A DNA stretch of 64,000 nucleotides from Prevotella sp. (GTDB lineage Bacteria; Bacteroidota; Bacteroidia; Bacteroidales; Bacteroidaceae), in assembly GCA_016291085.1 (NCBI GenBank), contig JAEEVW010000005.1, positions 1 through 64,000 of the forward strand, in the 5' to 3' direction. Made by a program: the position numbers and the translations under genes. Of the stretch, positions 17,429 through 42,801 are shown piece by piece. The notes beneath the pieces were generated by a model that made no database searches, was not told where the DNA came from, and was given only the letters and a program-made list of their open reading frames with translations. Position 1 is the stretch's first letter. Each line of letters starts with the position of its first letter.

Positions 17429-17439
17429 CGGCCGAATTC

Positions 17440-17512
17440 AAGGGGTGCTCACGGTTGTGGGCTGAGATGATACCCTTCAGAACCTGATTCGGATAATGCC
17501 GACGTAGGGATG
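17440..17512 (+). promoter_or_regulatory. TPP riboswitch (THI element)
   Basis: Contains the classical conserved parts: AGGGGTGC, GGCTGAGATGATACCCTT, GAACCTGATTCGGATAATGC and CGACGTAGGGA. It senses thiamine pyrophosphate and normally shuts expression when the cofactor is abundant. The following 55 bases before the receptor ATG show no clear terminator, so control of translation start is the likelier mode. Confidence 0.95.
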
Positions 17513-17567
17513 AATAGAGTAGCTCTTCCCCCTTATTTTAAAGTATTAATAAATAAGGTAAAAAGAA

Positions 17568-30719: not shown

Positions 30720-31267
30720 AGCGTTTTTACAATTTTCGCGGGATTTCCTGCCACGACGCAATTGTCGGGCACATCGTGGAACACCACAGAACCTGCGGCA
30801 ATCTTCACATTATTGCCGACGCGAATGCCTCCATAGACAGTAGCTCCCGTGTAGATGGACACATTGTCGCCAATGGTGGGCCGCCCGCCTTTGCCATTAC
30901 CCAGCGTCACCAGTTGCAGGCAGTAGAAATTGCTGCCAATGCTTTCAGCATTCAGATAGGTAGCGTAATTGTGTTCAAAATGGGCACCAGGGCCAATGCA
31001 CGTACACCAGATAGTCAAGGTACGCTCTGGCGGTAACAGCCACTGGATAGGCGCAGACAGATATTCACCTATTCTATAATAGAAGAGGTTACGGAAAGTA
31101 CGTTCACGTGTACATGCTTTGATGAAATTAAGTACGGTTGGCTTGCGGTCCTGCACTTGTTGCAGGTCGGCAGCTATCGCCTTTCTCTTTACGAGAAATA
31201 TAGCGATATGGGGCAACATGCGCAATGTTGATGCTGAGAGCAACAAGGTTTGTGTCAATGGATTCAT
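30716..31267 (-). CDS. Hexapeptide-repeat acetyltransferase (serine acetyltransferase-like)
   Basis: A 183-residue left-handed beta-helix protein: IGDNVSIYTGATVYGGIRVG, NNVKIAAGSVVFHDVPDN and GNPAKIV. Closest in style to CysE-like proteins of polysaccharide loci that O-acetylate sugars, rather than the cysteine pathway enzyme, because it sits between two glycan genes and overlaps both neighbours by four bases (ATGA). Confidence 0.83.
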   Translation of the reverse strand: MNPLTQTLLLSASTLRMLPHIAIFLVKRKAIAADLQQVQDRKPTVLNFIKACTRERTFRNLFYYRIGEYLSAPIQWLLPPERTLTIWCTCIGPGAHFEHNYATYLNAESIGSNFYCLQLVTLGNGKGGRPTIGDNVSIYTGATVYGGIRVGNNVKIAAGSVVFHDVPDNCVVAGNPAKIVKTL

Positions 31268-32526
31268 TGCTTCTGCATTTGAGGGGTGATACGATTCTGA
31301 TATTCTTCTATATAACGATTAGCCACACTCTGTTGAGAATACTTCTGAGCCACATGGTGCAGACACTCTCGACTCAATGTCGCGTAATCAGCATCAGCCA
31401 ACACGTAGTGAATGCCCTCAGCCAAGTCAGCAGCATCACGCTCTTGAGCCACATAACCGTTCACCTGATGATGAATCATCTCCGGTATTCCTCCCACATG
31501 GAATCCCACACAAGGCACGCCACAGGCCATCGCCTCCATGAGGGTGTTGGGCAGGTTGTCTTCCAGCGAGGGCAGTACAAAAACATCCGCAGCATTATAG
31601 ACGTTTACTATTTGTGAAGGATTGCTTACATATCCCAAAGGATAGGAAGGCAATGCCAACAGCGAAGCCACCTCCTCGGCATGTCCGCCAAGAATCGCCA
31701 CCCCCGTATTATCTTTCATCTCGGGATGTTGTCCGACCAAACGACTGACAGCCTCCACAAAATAGCTGATGCCTTTGCGGGGATCGGTAACACGCTGGGA
31801 AACAAAAAGAATGACACGTCGGTCGTTAGGCAGTCCCACTGCTTGACGAGCCTGCTGTTTGTCCTGTGGACGAAACTGCCGAGTATCAATGGCATTGGGA
31901 ATGCTGACAATGCGCTGCCCACTGAGCAGGGCACTCTTCCTGGCCTCTTCCGCCAGCCATTCACTGCAACACACATAGGTGATATGCTGTCCACTGAGCA
32001 TCTGTCGCTTACGATTCCATACCCGACGGGCCAAACTGCCACCTGGCAACAACGGGCACTGGACACATTGCGACAGATATTGTTCACAGCCACGTGTATA
32101 GTGGCAAACAGACGTTGCCGGCCAGATATCGTGCATCGTCCACACTACAGGTTTCCCTGATGTCAGAATCTTACGAATACCTTTCAGCGACAACATTCCT
32201 TGATTGATCCAATGCAGATGTATCACGTCTGCTTCTTGGAATTCAGGCAGCGAGGTTATATCCGTACCGGCATTAGCCATATCCACCTCAAAGAGATGCT
32301 CGCGTCTGAAATGCAGATGCAGCCAAATCACAAAACGTTCCCATAGAAAGTTCCAGTGATGACGCCACGACGATGGTAAACCGGCGACCGTCAATTGGTC
32401 TGTCTCCTTGTCGCGCACCAACATTTTAGCTTTCACGCCATTGTTATTCAAAGCCTCCAACAGACGGTTAGCAGCTACTGCCGCTCCACCCGTCCGTTCA
32501 CTCGTGTTTACTATCAGTACTCGCAT
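31264..32526 (-). CDS. Family 4 glycosyltransferase
   Basis: A 420-residue GT-B enzyme. N-terminal domain: LIVNTSERTGGAAVAANRLL, VIHLHWINQGMLSLKGIRKI and VWTMHDIWPATSVCHYTRGC. C-terminal domain: VSQRVTDPRKGI, VFVLPSLEDNLPNTLMEAMA and GVPCVGFHVGG. It probably acts early in the synthesis of a surface polysaccharide. First gene of the four-gene operon, behind a full-consensus promoter. Confidence 0.92.
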   Translation of the reverse strand: MRVLIVNTSERTGGAAVAANRLLEALNNNGVKAKMLVRDKETDQLTVAGLPSSWRHHWNFLWERFVIWLHLHFRREHLFEVDMANAGTDITSLPEFQEADVIHLHWINQGMLSLKGIRKILTSGKPVVWTMHDIWPATSVCHYTRGCEQYLSQCVQCPLLPGGSLARRVWNRKRQMLSGQHITYVCCSEWLAEEARKSALLSGQRIVSIPNAIDTRQFRPQDKQQARQAVGLPNDRRVILFVSQRVTDPRKGISYFVEAVSRLVGQHPEMKDNTGVAILGGHAEEVASLLALPSYPLGYVSNPSQIVNVYNAADVFVLPSLEDNLPNTLMEAMACGVPCVGFHVGGIPEMIHHQVNGYVAQERDAADLAEGIHYVLADADYATLSRECLHHVAQKYSQQSVANRYIEEYQNRITPQMQKQ

Positions 32527-32576: not shown

Positions 32577-32700
32577 TTAATTGGAGTTTTTCTGAGATGC
32601 AGCCTACATTCACCTTTGGTGAAAGGTACGAATAAATATTTTAAAGGGCATTCACAAAAGGAAAATATTGTGTTAATTTCTGTTGTTTTCGCGCACAACT

Positions 32701-32716
32701 CTTGATTTAAATCAAG
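32701..32716. promoter_or_regulatory. Perfect 16-bp palindrome upstream of the ncRNA promoter
   Basis: CTTGATTTAAATCAAG lies 37 bases before the -33 box of the ncRNA promoter. A smaller dyad (AGCGT, four T, ACGCT) follows at 32722-32735. The palindrome could be a dimer-binding site. No regulator is known. Confidence 0.45.
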
Positions 32717-32753: not shown

Positions 32754-32784
32754 TTTGATGATAACGAAAAAGTTCGTAACTTTG
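32754..32784 (+). promoter_or_regulatory. Promoter of the candidate ncRNA
   Basis: TTTG at 32754-32757, 19 bases, TAACTTTG at 32777-32784, a near-perfect Bacteroidales promoter with no coding gene behind it. Confidence 0.8.
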
Positions 32785-32789
32785 CATCG

Positions 32790-33101
32790 TCAAACAAAAA
32801 TTGACGCTTGACTAAGTGAAGTCAAGAATTGGTTAATAGATTGTTTTAGGTTAGTAGTAATATTTATAGTTTTAGGTTTTTAGTTATTGGTAAGAAGAAA
32901 GTTTTAAATGTGTTAGGATAACAGTGGTCGTCGCGAGACGCTCATAACTTTCTTTTCTAAGGTAATAGTTAGTATGTTAAATATGCTGCCGAAAGGCAGA
33001 CCTCCAGTCGAAAGACTGGAATTATCTTGAACAAAGGATTTTTAGTTAAACATAGGCTTTTTGAATACCACTGCTCGTTGATGAGTAGTGGTATTTTTTT
33101 T
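32790..33101 (+). ncRNA. Structured non-coding RNA of about 310 nt, family not recognised
   Basis: Between a consensus promoter and a strong intrinsic terminator there is no convincing reading frame, but five hairpins. They are CGTCAA/TTGACG (32788-32806), CTTGACT/AGTCAAG (32807-32826), CGTC-GCGA-GACG (32929-32940), CTGCC-GAAA-GGCAG (32986-32999) and TCCAGTC-GAAA-GACTGGA (33003-33020). The third sits inside a longer stem AAGAAAGTT/AACTTTCTT (32895-32903 with 32946-32954). Three loops are GNRA tetraloops, typical of folded RNAs. Signature sequences of RNase P RNA, tmRNA and SRP RNA are not seen. The neighbouring ispF gene is on the other strand, so it is not a leader. A 6S-like or other trans-acting role is possible but unproven. 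Confidence 0.7.
33064..33101 (+). terminator. Intrinsic terminator of the ncRNA
   Basis: AATACCACTGCTC, loop GTTGAT, GAGTAGTGGTATT (13 bp with one G-U pair), followed by eight T. It is directional: the opposite strand has no T-run after the stem. Confidence 0.9.
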
Positions 33102-33114
33102 CGCTGAGCCCTAA

Positions 33115-33588
33115 TCACTTTTCTATCAGTGCTACGGCATAGGCAGAAATTCCCTCCTGACGTCCCGTAAAGCCTAACTTTTCGGTAGTTGTCGCCTTGA
33201 TAGAGATTGCATCGGTGTCACAGCCTATCACTTGGGCCATCACTTGCTGCATCTGGGGGATATGCGGATTCATCTTGGGGCGCTCCGCACATATTGTTGC
33301 ATCGATATTCACTAAGTGATAGCCCTTAGTCGATATCAGTTCCATGGTTTTCTTTAGAATGATCTTGCTGTCCATTCCATCTGTTTCTGCTGATGTATCA
33401 GGAAAATGATAGCCAATATCACGCATATTAGCCGCCCCAAGGATGGCGTCACAGATAGCATGTATCAGCACGTCAGCATCACTATGTCCCAGCAAGCCCA
33501 ACTCATGATCAATCTTAATGCCGCCAATCCAGAGGTCCCTGTTAGGAACCAACTGGTGGACGTCATAGCCCATTCCTACTCTAATCAT
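33115..33588 (-). CDS. ispF: 2-C-methyl-D-erythritol 2,4-cyclodiphosphate synthase
   Basis: A 157-residue enzyme of the non-mevalonate isoprenoid pathway. Metal ligands are in MGYDVHQL and the signature LGHSDADVLIHAICDAILGA. The C-terminus ATTTEKLGFTGRQEGISAYA is conserved. It follows porV, the same order I recall for Porphyromonas (porU-porV-ispF). The pathway enzyme ispG is encoded 9 kb away. Confidence 0.96.
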   Translation of the reverse strand: MIRVGMGYDVHQLVPNRDLWIGGIKIDHELGLLGHSDADVLIHAICDAILGAANMRDIGYHFPDTSAETDGMDSKIILKKTMELISTKGYHLVNIDATICAERPKMNPHIPQMQQVMAQVIGCDTDAISIKATTTEKLGFTGRQEGISAYAVALIEK

Positions 33589-33641: not shown

Positions 33642-34841
33642 TTATTTAAACAAATCCTTGATTCCATCCATGTCGAAGGCCAAAGTGAAGCGCAGTGTCT
33701 GGTCCAAAGGATTGCTGCGGGCAGTCGAAATAACATAGCCCACATCCAGAGAGAACACATTCATGCGGAAACCGCCACCTACGGTGAAATACTTACGGTT
33801 ACCCTTGTTTTCCGACTCGTGATGATAACCTGCACGCAGGGAGAACTGGTCGTGATAGACATATTCCGCACCAATACTCCACTGAATCTCCTCCAGTTCT
33901 TCCTTGAATCCGCCAGGAGCATCGGTAAAACTCTTAAAGATACCAGAGATGGAACTGACATCACTATACTCGTTGATGACGCGTTGTTCGTAGTCTTCCT
34001 TCGGCTCTCCATCGTTCTGCTTCGGCACAGTAGGCACCAATAGTTTATTGGCATCTGCAGAGATGGAGAAGCGGTTGTATTCGTCAACAGGAATCATCAA
34101 CGATGCACCCAAACGCAGGTTGGCAGGCAGGAAGTTCGAGCGATCATCACCGAAATAGGTAATCTTCGAACCCACATTCTGCACGGTCAATCCCAAGCCT
34201 AGCTGGCACTCACGCTGTCCTATATTAAGGAAATTCTGATAGTAGAACGCCAAGTCAGCGGCAAAGGCCGAGGCAGGCGAGGCATCTTCCGTGTAATCAT
34301 AGCGCAAATCACTATAGAGCCAACGCAGAGCAACACCCATCGAGAATTTTTCGGTGAGCATCAGTGAGGCACCCGCATCCAGAGACATCTCATAGGGTTT
34401 CACCGTCAAGGCGTTCTCTTCGAACGAAGTCATTACCTCACCCAGCGAGAAATAGCGCAGCGAGCCGCTAACCGACAAGTTATCGCCAATGCGATAGTAA
34501 CCTGCCACATACGCCAAATCAATATCATTAACCAACTGACGCAACCAAGGGGTGTAGTTCAGTGCAATACCAGCCCTGCTGATACAGAACGGATACTTAG
34601 CTATGTTCCACGCCTGCGAGTTGACATCCGGATCTGTAGCTACACCCACATCACCCATACCTGCTGAACGGGCATCAGGAGCAATCGTTTGCGAGATGAC
34701 AGCGTGCTCAATGGGATTAAACTGGCTCTTCGTATCCTGAGCAGAAACTGCTAAAGGTAAAAAGGTAAAAAGGTAAAAAGGTAAAACCTTTCTTACCAAA
34801 CCTGCTACCTTATTATTCTTTTCTTTTCTCATATATGTCAT
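33642..34841 (-). CDS. porV: Type IX secretion outer membrane protein PorV (LptO)
   Basis: An outer membrane barrel of about 399 residues that shuttles cargo between the translocon and the PorU sortase. The mature start QFNPIEHAVISQTIAPDARS and GMGDVGVATDPDVNSQAWN is the PorV signature. The rest is a FadL-like barrel ending LRFTLAFDMDGIKDLFK. The signal peptide core (VLPFYLFTFLPLA) is encoded by four 8-bp repeats, so gain or loss of one unit would shift the frame. A second ATG at 34832 (MRKEKNNK) is possible. Follows porU after a repeat-rich gap. Confidence 0.93.
   Translation of the reverse strand: MTYMRKEKNNKVAGLVRKVLPFYLFTFLPLAVSAQDTKSQFNPIEHAVISQTIAPDARSAGMGDVGVATDPDVNSQAWNIAKYPFCISRAGIALNYTPWLRQLVNDIDLAYVAGYYRIGDNLSVSGSLRYFSLGEVMTSFEENALTVKPYEMSLDAGASLMLTEKFSMGVALRWLYSDLRYDYTEDASPASAFAADLAFYYQNFLNIGQRECQLGLGLTVQNVGSKITYFGDDRSNFLPANLRLGASLMIPVDEYNRFSISADANKLLVPTVPKQNDGEPKEDYEQRVINEYSDVSSISGIFKSFTDAPGGFKEELEEIQWSIGAEYVYHDQFSLRAGYHHESENKGNRKYFTVGGGFRMNVFSLDVGYVISTARSNPLDQTLRFTLAFDMDGIKDLFK
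34755..34786 (-). repeat. 8-bp repeat array in the porV signal sequence
   Basis: On the coding strand the unit is CCTTTTTA, four copies; on the plus strand GGT recurs at 34756, 34764, 34772 and 34780. Fifteen bases (34757-34771) are complementary to 34850-34864 in the gap before the gene, so the mRNA can fold around the start codon. Confidence 0.85.
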
Positions 34842-34868
34842 TTTTTACTTTTTTACCTTTTTACTTTT
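34841..34868 (-). repeat. AGTAAAAA spacer array between porU and porV
   Basis: The coding strand reads AAGTAAAAAGGTAAAAAAG followed by TAAAAAATG. Same unit family as the prmC-recX gap, in inverted relation to the array inside porV. Confidence 0.8.
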
Positions 34869-37800
34869 ATTTGTGGGTTAAAATAATCAATTTCTTTGCT
34901 TTCGAGGCATAGCTGCTGCCATCGCTGGCTATACGTATCCGATAGAGATAAACACCCGTCTGCAAGCGTCGTCCACCATCTACCGTCAAGTCCCAGTCAA
35001 TGGTATAACTATTATCTGTCGACACGCCATTCTCTGCATGAGACCACAGATGGCGGCCTGAAATATCAAACACATCAAGTATTACATCCATATTGCTGCC
35101 AATACGATCATGCAGGATGCGGAACGATGTCGTAGTCGTTGCAGGGTTAACCGTCGCTTCCACATCAAAGAACAGCGGTTCCAACCCCTTCACCACATTG
35201 AAAGTCAGTTCTGCCGTCGACGAGTTATTCAGGATGTCCCATGCACGGAACAACAGTTTATGTTCGCCATACGACAATTCCGGAATGCTATAGCCCACCG
35301 AACCGCGGGTATAACTGCCGAAGTCATACTGGAAATAGTCGTTCAGCGAGTATGTCTTCGTCATCTCTCCATCAATAATCAGCTGCAGGTCATGTCCGAT
35401 ACCGCTTCCTGCAGCATTGATACCATCCTCGTCATTCAGCTGTGCCACGAAGTAGGGCGTCGGATTGACGCTGCCTCCATTGACAAACGACGAACTATTG
35501 AGATAACAGTAGATGTTAGGACCTATTCCATCCTGCGGAAGACCTCCAGAGCCGCTCATTATCACCTGATTACAGATGCCACTGGCCTCCATGGTCTTTT
35601 CGTCATTGACTGCATAGAGGTTAATCAATCCATTTGCATCTGAATAGCTAATATCCTTAGGTACAGCAAAAGTAAACGAGAAGCGTCCGCTCTTTACCAA
35701 GTCACTGCCGTTGAACAAGACATTAGGACGATCATAGAACACAAACGGTTCGCTGGCCTCTGACGGATCATTCATCTTACAGACAACACGTTCCAAAGCA
35801 TCACGGACAATAGCAGTCAGCGTACCACTAAACGTGGTAGCCAGCTGTCCGTTTTCTGTAACATGACCAGTAACCGTTGCCGTCGAACCAGCCTTCAGCG
35901 TCTGTGTCTGACCACTCACCAGAGGCTGATTATTGATAGAGTCTATCTGAATACCCAAGGTCGGTGCTGCCAGTCTCATGGCAGGGTCTCCCATCAGGGT
36001 ATACTGCAGTTTATTCTGAGTGCGGTCTGAAGAATAGACAGGATTTCCGTTGGAATAGCCCACAAGCGTACCAGTCTCTACCAGTTCGTTCTTGGCTCGA
36101 CGAACGGCCTCACCAATAGGCAACATTCGACCATTCTCCTGACTTAACACATGACGTGTGAATGACATATTCATCAGTCGGTTATAGGTTTGGAACACAG
36201 TACGCGTTGTTCCAAAGAAGGCTATGGCACCGCCCATTTTATTAAACATCGCCGTTTCACCGATATTCTCTTCTTGCCCGTCAAAAGGCATAATGTCGCA
36301 AGACGCCGTTACCCACAAGGGCAGTCGCGAAGAGGTGTTATTGAAATCGGCCAAGCGGAGCACATATTCATGAGAGACGGCATCAGCACGTCCGTGTCCA
36401 GAGTAGTTCATGATTAATGCTCCTTGTTGCATCTGTTGTTTAATCAGTCGCGTCACGTCAGGATAGCTGTTTCCCGTCGATGAACTGACACGGTTATAGG
36501 CATCCCACATCACTCGCTTAATCTGATAAGTAGGATAGTATAGCTCCACCATTCGGGCTACGCTGTCGGCGTCTTGCATGTGGGCATTCTCGTTACCGTC
36601 ATCACCCATCATGAAGAGCAGATTCTGCCAAGCTCCTGCTTGGTCGTTGTTTACATAGCTGATAACCTTGTCTACCACCACCTCTGCTTCCTCAGCCGTG
36701 CGAGCAGAGATACGTCCCACTGCCACGTCGGCCTTGCCGATTAGCATGTTATCACCCTCACCGTCATCCAACAGACAGAAATAGTCGTCCGTCACATAGC
36801 AATCGGTGGCACTATACGAGTTCTCACTTTCATAGCAAAGCAGGAAATCATCAGGCGAATAGCCTTTCCATTCAGAACATGCCATACGGTTATCCCACGC
36901 TCCGTCGCCCATCAGCAACAAATAGCGAGGCATATCGGTTTCGTTCTCAGCACGGTCGTAGAGCATTCTCAGATAGCGTCGATAGGCATTTGCGTCAGGC
37001 GTACCGCTTGAGAACTCATTAAACAACTCGTCGGCAGGCACTATTCTGACCTTCAGACTATCTCGCGACTCATGAAAAGCTTTCAGTCGTTCTGCTTGGC
37101 CAATCAGTTTCTGCGTGGTAGGAATGATGATGACCATATCCACAAACCCATCAGCATGATGGTCTTGGTTGGTGATACCATAGACATAGTCCGGAACAGG
37201 GAATGTCGCTGTCAGATCCGGCGCCGGTGCTGGTTCTAAAGCATGAATGGAAATATAGTCCAGACGAACATTGCCACCTCCGGCATTCGTCGAAATCGTC
37301 ACCTTGTTAGAAGCCTGCAGATTTCTGATGGAATCAGTTCTCATGGCAGGAAACATCTGTTCGTAACTGCCATGTGCCTGAATGTTCAAAGTCCCGATTG
37401 ACACATCATTGACACTGACGTCGACCTTTGTGACATTATCGCCTGTCACAACAATAGTCATAAGCCCTTTCTGACCGCCACCCTTTGCAGGGACGGTAAA
37501 AGAATGGCTGCCACCTGCAGTAATCAACGTGGCATCATACAGGTTTCGTCCTCCATGATACCAAGCATAATCATCTACTTCATACAATGTATTATAGTCG
37601 TCAGCCAGTGGATAATAATTATTTTTGAATTCCTCCTCACTCATCGTCAAGGGAATACTGTCGTTTTCCGTCAGGAAATAGCAGCCCACATTCGAATAAG
37701 GATTACGAACCCGTTGGTGCTTTTCGTTCCACGTTACAGGTCCAACGGCATAGAACAGACGCTTTCCACCGACCTCACAAATCGGCACTTCCTTCAGGTC

Positions 37801-38424
37801 GTCTGTCTCTGCCAGATAGGTTGCCATCAGTTTCTCGGGTTGCATGCCACCACCATAGCCATACACTTTTACCTTATTGATATCAGAGAATCCGGCCTTC
37901 CGAATGAGTTCGCTCGACAATTGATAGATACCCGTTGACGGAACACTGATCTTTACCCAGCGCCCTGAAGCCAGTACCGAATGAGCCGCATAGATACTCT
38001 CTGAAGAAGCAGGGGAACGACGTGCGGAACGGCGTTTTTCACCCTTCACTTCGAGCATAAAGCTCACCAGCTTCTGATATTGGCCGTCACGATACACCAA
38101 GGGCACAAACGAAACGGTCAGTTCTCCCTGTTTCCTGTCGACGCTGGTGGCTTGCATGATTTCCGGCATAGCAGGCAGAGGGGCTTTTGAGATTCGAAGA
38201 TAACGCTGCACGTCAGCCTCGCTCATCGGGATAAATTCCGGATAGGTAATGGCAACGGAATAAGTAGAGTCTGCATAGTGCTGTCCTAACGCCACATGGT
38301 GTGTGAAGACCGGCAACAGCGAATCAATCCTGACCTGTTCTGCAGTCAAGTTAAAAAAGCGTTGCGCCTGGGTCGTCAGGCTCATCAACAGCAATCCTAC
38401 ACCTATTATTATATATCGTCTCAT
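34867..38424 (-). CDS. porU: Type IX secretion sortase PorU
   Basis: A 1185-residue gingipain-family (C25) protease that cuts the C-terminal signal from type IX cargo and attaches it to the surface. Signal peptide at 1-20 (MRRYIIIGVGLLLMSLTTQA). The catalytic His is in NYSGHGRAD near residue 675 and the Cys in VTASCDIMPFD near 707. The block LLLMGDGAWDNRM is typical. The C-terminal 90 residues (DVFDISGRHLWSH, RLQTGVYLYRIRI) form a CTD-like domain. Its start overlaps the FAH gene stop (ATGA). porV follows. Confidence 0.94.
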   Translation of the reverse strand: MRRYIIIGVGLLLMSLTTQAQRFFNLTAEQVRIDSLLPVFTHHVALGQHYADSTYSVAITYPEFIPMSEADVQRYLRISKAPLPAMPEIMQATSVDRKQGELTVSFVPLVYRDGQYQKLVSFMLEVKGEKRRSARRSPASSESIYAAHSVLASGRWVKISVPSTGIYQLSSELIRKAGFSDINKVKVYGYGGGMQPEKLMATYLAETDDLKEVPICEVGGKRLFYAVGPVTWNEKHQRVRNPYSNVGCYFLTENDSIPLTMSEEEFKNNYYPLADDYNTLYEVDDYAWYHGGRNLYDATLITAGGSHSFTVPAKGGGQKGLMTIVVTGDNVTKVDVSVNDVSIGTLNIQAHGSYEQMFPAMRTDSIRNLQASNKVTISTNAGGGNVRLDYISIHALEPAPAPDLTATFPVPDYVYGITNQDHHADGFVDMVIIIPTTQKLIGQAERLKAFHESRDSLKVRIVPADELFNEFSSGTPDANAYRRYLRMLYDRAENETDMPRYLLLMGDGAWDNRMACSEWKGYSPDDFLLCYESENSYSATDCYVTDDYFCLLDDGEGDNMLIGKADVAVGRISARTAEEAEVVVDKVISYVNNDQAGAWQNLLFMMGDDGNENAHMQDADSVARMVELYYPTYQIKRVMWDAYNRVSSSTGNSYPDVTRLIKQQMQQGALIMNYSGHGRADAVSHEYVLRLADFNNTSSRLPLWVTASCDIMPFDGQEENIGETAMFNKMGGAIAFFGTTRTVFQTYNRLMNMSFTRHVLSQENGRMLPIGEAVRRAKNELVETGTLVGYSNGNPVYSSDRTQNKLQYTLMGDPAMRLAAPTLGIQIDSINNQPLVSGQTQTLKAGSTATVTGHVTENGQLATTFSGTLTAIVRDALERVVCKMNDPSEASEPFVFYDRPNVLFNGSDLVKSGRFSFTFAVPKDISYSDANGLINLYAVNDEKTMEASGICNQVIMSGSGGLPQDGIGPNIYCYLNSSSFVNGGSVNPTPYFVAQLNDEDGINAAGSGIGHDLQLIIDGEMTKTYSLNDYFQYDFGSYTRGSVGYSIPELSYGEHKLLFRAWDILNNSSTAELTFNVVKGLEPLFFDVEATVNPATTTTSFRILHDRIGSNMDVILDVFDISGRHLWSHAENGVSTDNSYTIDWDLTVDGGRRLQTGVYLYRIRIASDGSSYASKAKKLIILTHK

Positions 38425-41620: not shown

Positions 41621-42241
41621 GTGAAACGAGAAAAGCAAATCATCCTGGCTGCTCGCATCATGAGCATGGTGTTCACACCGTTCTATCTGCCCATCATCGG
41701 ACTGATAGTACTCTTTGTGTTCAGCTATCTCAGCATGTTTTCCTGGGAATACAAGATTCAGGTACTGCTTCTGACTTATCTGTTCACCATTCTCCTCCCC
41801 ACCCTGCTGATTCATCTATACCGACGCTATCAGGGTTGGAGCCTCATTGAGCTGGGTCACCGCGAACGACGCATGGTGCCATACGTCATCTCCATTATCT
41901 GCTACTTTACCTGTATCTATGTGATGGAACGTCTCCACATGCCTCATTTCATGGGATCCATTGTGGTGGCTGCCCTGTTGGTACAGATTGTATGTGCGCT
42001 CATCAATGTCTGGTGGAAGATTTCCACCCACACTGCCGCCATTGGAGGTTTGGGAGGAGCATTGTTTGCCTTTGCCTACTATTTAGGATTTAACCCCGTG
42101 TGGTGGCTCTGCCTGATCTTCATCGTGGGTGGCGTAATCGGCACCTGCCGAATGATTCTTCGCCAGCATAGCCTCGCGCAAGTCGTGGTTGGTTTCTGGA
42201 CAGGATTCCTCTGCGCCGCAGTGGCGATATTGTTCTTATAA
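41621..42241 (+). CDS. PAP2-superfamily-like membrane protein
   Basis: A 206-residue protein with six hydrophobic segments. The C-terminal half has KISTHTAAIGGL and RMILRQHSLAQVVVGF, which resemble the PAP2 phosphatase motifs (PSGH and SRxxxxxHxxxD) but lack the second-motif acidic residue, so activity is uncertain. It begins with GTG. Lies between rpoN and purE. Confidence 0.7.
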   Translation: MKREKQIILAARIMSMVFTPFYLPIIGLIVLFVFSYLSMFSWEYKIQVLLLTYLFTILLPTLLIHLYRRYQGWSLIELGHRERRMVPYVISIICYFTCIYVMERLHMPHFMGSIVVAALLVQIVCALINVWWKISTHTAAIGGLGGALFAFAYYLGFNPVWWLCLIFIVGGVIGTCRMILRQHSLAQVVVGFWTGFLCAAVAILFL

Positions 42242-42286
42242 CCCTAACATCCCTAATCACCCTACTCCCCCTAACAACCCTAATAA
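42242..42286. repeat. CCCTAAnnn spacer array upstream of purE
   Basis: CCCTA recurs at 42242, 42251, 42260, 42269 and 42278, exact 9-bp period with varying last three bases. The same 9-bp design occurs in frame inside the RluA-family gene (53687-53720). Confidence 0.85.
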
Positions 42287-42294
42287 AATAAAAT

Positions 42295-42801
42295 ATGACC
42301 CCGTTAGTAAGCATTATCATGGGCAGCACGTCTGACCTGCCCGTTATGGAAAAAGCTTGTAAGCAACTTGACGCCTTACAGATTCCCTTCGAAGTCAACG
42401 CCCTCTCAGCACATCGCACGCCCGAGGCCGTTGAGCAGTTTGCAACCCAGGCCAAAGAGCGTGGATTGAAAGTCATCATTGCTGCTGCTGGTATGGCTGC
42501 CGCCCTGCCTGGTGTGATTGCAGCCTCAACGACGTTGCCCGTCATTGGTGTTCCCATCAAGGGTATGCTCGACGGACTGGACGCCATGCTGAGCATCATT
42601 CAGATGCCTCCAGGCATTCCCGTTGCCACCGTGGGTGTCAATGCGGCCCAGAATGCAGCCATCTTGGCTGTTGAGATGCTGGCACTGACGGACGAGGCCA
42701 TCGCCCAGCGCTTGGCCGACTACAAGAGCGGGCTGAAAGCAAAGATTGAGAAAGCCAACCAAGATTTAGCAGAAATCAAGTATGAGTACAAGACGAATTA
42801 G
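42295..42801 (+). CDS. purE: N5-carboxyaminoimidazole ribonucleotide mutase
   Basis: A 168-residue class I PurE of purine synthesis: MGSTSDLPVMEKACKQL, NALSAHRTPE and AAAGMAAALPGVIAA. The catalytic His is in SAHRTP. The usual GGAAHLPG is AAGMAAALPG here, a known variation. It overlaps the ispG start by 20 bases. Confidence 0.95.
   Translation: MTPLVSIIMGSTSDLPVMEKACKQLDALQIPFEVNALSAHRTPEAVEQFATQAKERGLKVIIAAAGMAAALPGVIAASTTLPVIGVPIKGMLDGLDAMLSIIQMPPGIPVATVGVNAAQNAAILAVEMLALTDEAIAQRLADYKSGLKAKIEKANQDLAEIKYEYKTN

Follow-up and report, generated by a model that had tools for sequence, protein, structure and literature searches.

FopS, a small RNA which represses translation of susC in B. thetaiotaomicron (according to the available portions of PMC11697453), is the closest described counterpart of the RNA gene presented here. 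GibS of B. thetaiotaomicron is likewise a stand-alone small RNA, whose seeds base-pair where translation begins, but is set apart, by description, through its PM2-type promoter and its conservation within Bacteroides (PMC11697453 and PMC7366714, each in its accessible part). Concerning possible protein partners, Bacteroides reportedly has neither CsrA nor Hfq nor ProQ, and RRM proteins have been reported as RNA binders of this genus (accessible part of PMC12119571). For Prevotella, no study of a small-RNA family was found in a literature search that had most subscription papers outside its reach; the nearest hits are two Prevotella-only candidate motifs near uvrC (PMC8040213, available text), and a prior listing of the present RNA as an unnamed motif is possible.

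The window, i.e. the complete stretch of 64,000 nucleotides of a Prevotella sp. contig which was analysed, contains a predicted RNA gene resembling FopS (RF04319) in several respects. In genomes of the genus, FopS displays the same dyad-promoter pattern as the window RNA, its 5′ part is C-poor as well and is then followed by an intrinsic terminator, and FopS and a short-type member of the new family exhibit the resembling words UAUUAG(A/G)UUUAAGGU. Upon alignment with the FopS seed (R1/R1′), 6 of 500 shuffles scored as well as the short-type member; for the long-type leader of the window this number was 82 of 500, which is not significant. In contrast to FopS, the new family carries a family-wide GNRA hairpin and a 3′ block, and the FopS model comprises 71 nt as against ~310 nt here (short type ~190 nt). 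RF04319 found no match in the window at gathering threshold or at E ≤ 5, and none in a short-type member at E ≤ 1. Bacteroidales-1 (RF01693), regarded as the 6S RNA of Bacteroidales, is likewise a free-standing RNA and lies at a separate locus of the same genome (G000 C21:20847-21030). Outside the phylum's own RNAs, the sponges CsrB and RsmY consist of arrays of a short repeated motif. They have these short-motif arrays as well as a regulator-controlled promoter in common with the window RNA, whereas the leader motif found here differs from the sites of CsrA, which present GGA in a loop.

Promoter, terminator and anatomy

Judged from its sequence features, the segment is a predicted free-standing RNA gene of ~310 nt that is apparently non-coding (Table 1). 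A sequence-only reading had proposed a consensus promoter and a strong intrinsic terminator bracketing a region with no convincing gene, and each of these elements was retrieved. The −33 and −7 elements, read from the sequence, lie 19 bp apart and form a pair which we assign to the Bacteroidetes-type promoter, and the terminator combines a 13-bp stem including one G-T pair with a 6-nt loop and eight T. On the plus strand, the only frame of at least 20 aa in the RNA segment is a 26-aa TTG frame, while the minus strand holds a 49-aa GTG and a 22-aa TTG frame. That the segment is not a leader also holds, as the next gene, ispF, is encoded on the opposite strand. The folding energy of the RNA segment amounts to −84.7 kcal/mol. 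Its 100 dinucleotide shuffles average −64.4 ± 4.4 kcal/mol, and none of them folds as stably (z = −4.66). Much of this stability is supplied by the terminator alone, and conservation is the stronger evidence.

Table 1 Features of the predicted RNA gene and its immediate surroundings in the window
Feature	Position	Strand	Basis and remarks
Group-1 glycosyltransferase neighbour	31267..32526	-	divergent, outside the unit; PF13692, 5.1e-29
Upstream operator half A TGTTTTCGCGCACAA, consensus TGTkTnCGCACACAA	32684..32698	+	141 of 178 distinct members have it when ≤4 mismatches are allowed
FNR/CRP-like dyad TTGATTTAAATCAA	32702..32715	+	167 of 178 distinct members carry a dyad-like sequence (≤2 mismatches)
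−33 element TTTG	32754..32757	+	Bacteroidetes-type promoter (assigned); sequence
−7 element TAACTTTG	32777..32784	+	172 of 178 distinct members have TAnnTTTGC ahead of their leader
Predicted sRNA transcript	32790..33101	+	bounded by promoter and terminator; 32827-33103 matched by the covariance model with 145.6 bits; start estimated to ±3 nt by the −7 box
Two extra 5′ hairpins	32788-32806, 32807-32826	+	sequence and fold; close relatives only, missing from short-type members
C-free run of 98 nt, including the conserved leader 32831-32889	32824..32921	+	sequence
Shared leader module AGGATAAC	32915..32922	+	sequence; AGG[AT]TAAC common to operator-defined transcripts
Family-wide hairpin, GNRA loop GCGA	32924..32945	+	compensatory changes in 8 of 8 pairs, 93.5% of cells paired
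Hairpin CTGCC-GAAA-GGCAG	32986..32999	+	long subtype only; two relatives (L003, L004) keep pairing with changed letters
Hairpin CCAGTC-GAAA-GACTGG	33004..33019	+	long subtype only; sequence, relatives
Conserved 3′ block AAAGGATTTTTAGTTAAACATAGGC	33033..33057	+	conservation in relatives
Intrinsic terminator, conserved GCTC...GAGT apex, T8	33064..33101	+	compensatory changes in 13 of 13 pairs, 97.5% of cells paired
ispF neighbour (YgbB family)	33118..33588	-	convergent, outside the unit; PF02542, 6.6e-70

All three GNRA tetraloops of the sequence-only reading (GCGA at 32933-32936, GAAA at 32991-32994 and at 33010-33013) and its five or more hairpins are present in the window, but the family as a whole shares just the GCGA hairpin and the terminator, whereas both GAAA hairpins and both 5′ hairpins were seen in close relatives of the window RNA alone. 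The most conserved part is the C-free leader, which is absent from that reading, as is the upstream operator (32684-32715). Across 172 members, C makes up 0.1% of the leader, and there are 7.3 TAG per 60 nt, compared with 1.9 in mononucleotide shuffles; since these leaders were gathered via a 21-nt leader word with at most two errors, invariance inside this word is partly a matter of selection, and the family loci, most of them gathered by a leader word, also share descent. Of 125 low-C, TAG-rich stretches in 1.38 Mb of collected loci, 108 coincide with core members. The leader begins right after the promoter; in the window, the two extra hairpins intervene. Among 100 aligned members, 81 are of a short type (up to ~200 nt) and 19, like the window RNA, of a long type. 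Within the leader, RNAalifold predicted no conserved helix (20 members), and single-sequence folding gave a mean pairing probability of 0.55, which counts against the antisense reading considered below. A possible third hairpin, AUUGUU/AACAAU, could form all six pairs in 40 of the 81 short members, this being the best of many offsets.

The remainder of the window offers some minor observations. Directly past ispF, at 33645-38424 (minus strand), lie genes for PorV and for a C25-peptidase protein of 1185 aa, the latter presumably PorU-like and, together with PorV, part of a type IX secretion system. A TPP riboswitch at 17431-17527 (plus strand, 69.9 bits) is the sole Rfam gathering-level match in the window, and a TTAGGG-rich stretch with G-runs at 42225-42306 (minus strand) possibly forms quadruplexes.

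Distribution and covariation of the family

Used as a DNA query, the 366-bp segment found matches at E ≤ 0.01 in 36 of 60 genomes, its own included, some of them short or promoter-only and three in other families. Long matches form two blocks, the leader after the promoter and the stretch ahead of the terminator. RNAalifold on 20 members yielded two helices with compensatory changes in 15 of 21 pairs. A covariance model (R1) detected the RNA at E ≤ 0.001 in 275 of the 299 genomes sampled from the genus and in 127 of the 131 good ones. In a family-level sample (E ≤ 0.01), 40 of 301 genomes had a match. For the 22 belonging to the same genus, best scores per genome were 126-193 bits, and the 18 from other genera gave weak matches (E from 5.6e-6 to 0.0098). 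Of three of the latter inspected by eye, two (L223 and L224) look like real C-poor relatives, and the match in the other (L222) looks like chance, driven by a repeat.

When 100 members were aligned with R1 as guide, which fits the alignment to this structure and makes it lean that way, double changes occurred at all 21 pairs of the two family-wide helices. Here, 96.0% of the paired cells are indeed paired, compared with 78.6% after shuffling and 37-48% with the partners slid, and 379 cells are doubly changed as opposed to 117 after shuffling. Hence, the expected covariation of stems across relatives was obtained for the GCGA hairpin and the terminator, while the other hairpins occur only in close relatives. 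A check with Rfam covariance models assigned the locus to no known family, and the RNA family is absent from Rfam 15. At 12 loci with members, no Rfam 15 model reached its gathering score on the RNA. In particular, neither RNase P nor tmRNA nor SRP RNA was matched at the locus by Rfam and ARAGORN, in line with the sequence-only reading. Sub-threshold matches were rejected as chance hits caused by hairpins and the terminator (the best being PyrR, 31 versus a required 54 bits; BTnc231, 17.9 versus 80.4 bits).

A pattern scan of named genomes retrieved at least 119 stretches, the 80 titles listed comprising Prevotella, Prevotellaceae, Segatella, Hallella, one 'Bacteroidales bacterium' and one 'uncultured bacterium'; viral contigs contributed three exact pattern matches. 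Several diverged copies of the RNA occur in some genomes, and in the present one a diverged second member is located on contig C48. Beside a diverged member elsewhere, a cobalamin riboswitch was noticed (L220 2076-2260, minus strand). Homologues of the glycosyltransferase and/or of ispF flank 82 of 141 members, and the remaining neighbours are varied. Downstream genes of 130 members are oriented on the opposite strand in 79 cases and on the same strand in 51, with no constant gene among them. A conserved downstream gene on the same strand, as expected for a cis-acting leader or riboswitch, was thus not found in these 130 members, and the varied neighbours together with downstream genes in both directions argue for an autonomous gene.

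The upstream operator and the transcripts behind it

Both operator parts keep a fixed distance to the promoter. Half A sits 92-94 bp upstream of the start of the −7 box in 126 of the 141 members having it, and the dyad TTGATnTAnrTCAA is positioned at −75 or −74 from the same point in 161 of 167. Searching four genomes for the dyad plus RAA gave 16 occurrences (two of them being both strands of one place) and none with a reversed control. Five of the sites belong to the present genome, where they precede the window RNA, another C-poor RNA that ends in a terminator (C7), FopS (C77), an mRNA (C66) and, on C67, a 31-aa hydrophobic frame with a C-poor leader. The complete dyad-spacer-promoter pattern was found at 44 places in six of six genomes, again with no hit for the reversed control, which defines 44 distinct downstream transcripts. 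Thirteen of these belong to the window-RNA family as recognized by the leader word; sorted by eye, the others include eight FopS-like RNAs, seven hydrophobic peptides of 25-32 aa, four secreted proteins of ~120 aa and two lysine/alanine-rich histone-like proteins, besides others. Four of the eight FopS-like transcripts were tested with RF04319, and all four passed (73.7-79.2 bits, cut-off 56).

The transcripts also have leader modules in common. AGG[AT]TAAC is present in 21 of the 44 and still in 16 of the 31 outside the core family, where local shuffles would give 0.3-0.4; AAAGATT[AG]T occurs in 14 and AAGGTA(2-8)GATT in eight of the 44, the last being absent from 916 kb of other sequence with core members masked. 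Upstream of genes in the same masked 916 kb, AGGATAAC is no commoner than its reversed control, and the idea that the modules are a general 5′ UTR feature was dropped, as a single AGGATAAC in 49.8 kb of upstream regions equals this control. Order and number of the modules differ between paralogs.

Several loci behind the operator deserve separate mention. One relative (L310; G274 C1, about 484 kb) contains 5.3 tandem copies, matching at 97%, of a unit of 47 nt. The unit reads GGTATTAGATTAAGGTAAGTAAAGAAGATTGTAAGTTAGGGACAACA, with slight variation, and joins a FopS-like word, AAGATTG and AGGGACAACA. At two loci (L274 on contig C7 of the present genome, G000, and L275 in G141), the dyad precedes a second C-poor RNA, in which GATATTTTTTTGATTTGTTTTAGTAGATTAGTTTTTAAGTAGTTTGTTTT leads into a hairpin and a run of T; no Rfam gathering match was obtained for either locus. 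The hydrophobic 25-32-aa peptides are encoded at L284, L297, L298, L301, L314, L323 and L324, with several of their leaders ending in AAGGTAAAAAGATTATG or alike, and the one peptide tested had no Pfam match. A purine riboswitch (L297 47-143, plus strand) lies 1.4 kb from a small-protein locus.

As to the protein acting at the operator, BT4338/Crp was rejected, its motif TATGTTnTAnAACATA, as given in the accessible part of PMC3878776, being different. The only protein of this genome exceeding the HTH_Crp_2 cut-off (L329 on C8) resembles PDB 1zyb (2.8e-45) and is, on this similarity, a regulator candidate only. Of the viral-contig FopS copies, 25 extend far enough upstream to be assessed, and a −7 box is visible in 15 of them; none of the 25 has the TTGA-N6-TCAA dyad. 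These copies are probably of Bacteroides type, and the notion of the dyad being ancestral to Bacteroides FopS was abandoned on this count of 0 of 25. In eight viral-contig copies (L356, L359, L361, L362, L364, L379, L380, L381), a GTTAAC-rich stretch followed by AAACCATGTTATAA replaces the TTGAT dyad.

Proposed antisense pairing and competing explanations

The sequence-only reading had considered a 6S-like or other trans-acting RNA. Its second option is supported by the RNA's own promoter and terminator, strong covariation, the lack of a constant downstream gene and genus-wide retention, so that the RNA is an orphan and probably acts in trans, while 6S-likeness is unsupported. At a probability of roughly 45%, we tentatively favour a trans-acting predicted sRNA of the FopS regulon, the leader of which likely pairs with the starts of susC-type mRNAs and which would thereby act as an antisense silencer. 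A CRP/FNR-type protein would switch on the transcript set. The C-free leader would stay fairly open because, without C, no G-C pairs can form inside it, and would bind A-rich, G-poor start regions typical of the phylum, with UAG and GUUAG facing CUA and CUAAC. Targets would be susC-type and other nutrient-uptake mRNAs, whose translation might be dampened, while the GNRA hairpin and the terminator may protect the RNA and the repeated modules could let one RNA reach many related messages.

Computed from sequence, the pairing statistics for susC starts are mixed. With the genome's 17 susC start regions as targets, the leader reached an AT-adjusted z of −3.85, a value attained by 2 of 118 dinucleotide shuffles; in the same test, the mean of shuffled leaders was −1.41 and the reversed leader gave +1.11. 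The short-type leader behaved alike (z = −3.58; 4 of 118 shuffles), and for the two leader halves 2 and 0 of 100 shuffles were as low, with five queries tried. Without AT adjustment, 8 of 60 shuffles were as low as the whole leader. The contrast of susC starts versus other AT-rich starts was reached by 3 of 60, and on AT-rich starts generally the shuffles outdo the leader, 54 of 60 being as low. No preference for susC starts was seen for the 3′ block (32 of 100 shuffles), for that end of the short leader which resembles FopS (64 of 100) or, in this genome, for FopS itself as positive control (14 of 100; p = 0.49).

Word-based tests gave a similar picture. CTAAC, one of nine words inspected first, occurs in 6 of 17 susC start regions versus 11 of 321 others (Fisher 5.6e-5); among hold-out susC-like genes it occurs in one of five, a repeat of a training-set gene, and thus gains no support there. 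In a 400-kb sample of another genome, 29 9-mers antisense to the leader were counted at 284 starts versus 15.2 ± 6.6 after shuffling (12 of 300 shuffles), with no enrichment in the 3′ control (5 versus 7.0 expected); antisense words of 7 and 8 nt were not enriched at starts of the same sample (186 and 54 of 300 shuffles). One 16-nt module has 28 matches, eight of which, sorted by eye, fall outside RNAs of this kind. Four of these eight are antisense and within 10 nt of a start codon, namely of genes for a TonB-plug protein, a beta-N-acetylglucosaminidase, a lactate permease and a DHO-dehydrogenase-like protein. With up to three mismatches, one of 11 matches of this module lies at a start, and shuffled 16-mers give 11%.

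Antisense action leaves unexplained that the modules also occur same-sense in mRNA leaders of the regulon. This is accounted for if the RNA is a decoy in the manner of CsrB, with the leader as an array of short sites for an RNA-binding protein or translation factor which the RNA would titrate off mRNA leaders bearing the same modules, e.g. AGGAUAAC and AGAUUGUU. Such a sponge is possible, if somewhat unlikely. The recurrence of modules across one regulon, in mRNAs as well as non-coding RNAs, the chance-level frequency of AGGATAAC in ordinary upstream regions, the variable module order and number in paralogs and the tandem array in G274 all fit it, but shared modules could also be targets of a common antisense RNA or reflect common descent. 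Moreover, of 60 genomes of the genus no more than 4 encode RRM_1 proteins, and an RRM protein was dropped as general partner; an association of the RbpB type found no counterpart either, with no RRM_1 in the present genome and a positive Bacteroides control. The RbpB motif GUAGGAUA (cited in PMC12119571, accessible part) is matched exactly in three long-type members (L005-L007). A broader version, in which one CRP/FNR-type operator drives FopS, the C-free RNAs and the mRNAs of tiny membrane proteins, one factor reads the shared modules and the window RNA is a near-universal sponge, appears rather unlikely; if true, this regulon would amount to a Csr-like system in bacteria mostly without RRM proteins and reportedly without Hfq, ProQ and CsrA. 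Antisense and decoy readings alike would make the RNA a trans-acting regulator.

Rho prefers C, and a C-free leader without a predicted conserved helix could mainly serve to keep the RNA unpaired and free of Rho, allowing completion of a scaffold or structural RNA that is not translated. Although the near-total lack of C in 172 leaders is in accordance with this, the conserved exact leader sequence and the modules common to FopS and small-protein mRNAs are left unexplained, which renders a scaffold improbable. A 6S RNA or other housekeeping RNA missed by Rfam would be near-universal in the genus and free-standing as well, but is highly improbable given Bacteroidales-1 at its separate locus, several diverged copies in some genomes, and conservation of a short GNRA hairpin and terminator instead of a long hairpin with a central bubble; RF00013 (6S) found nothing in this genome, and missed a Bacteroides control genome, too.

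Prevotella and the genera split off from it count among the principal inhabitants of the gut, the rumen and the mouth. As an antisense RNA or a decoy, an RNA encoded in nearly every good genome of the genus and tied to FopS by its operator would be a regulatory RNA hub, and it would give a handle on which protein serves small RNAs in Bacteroidota without RRM proteins.
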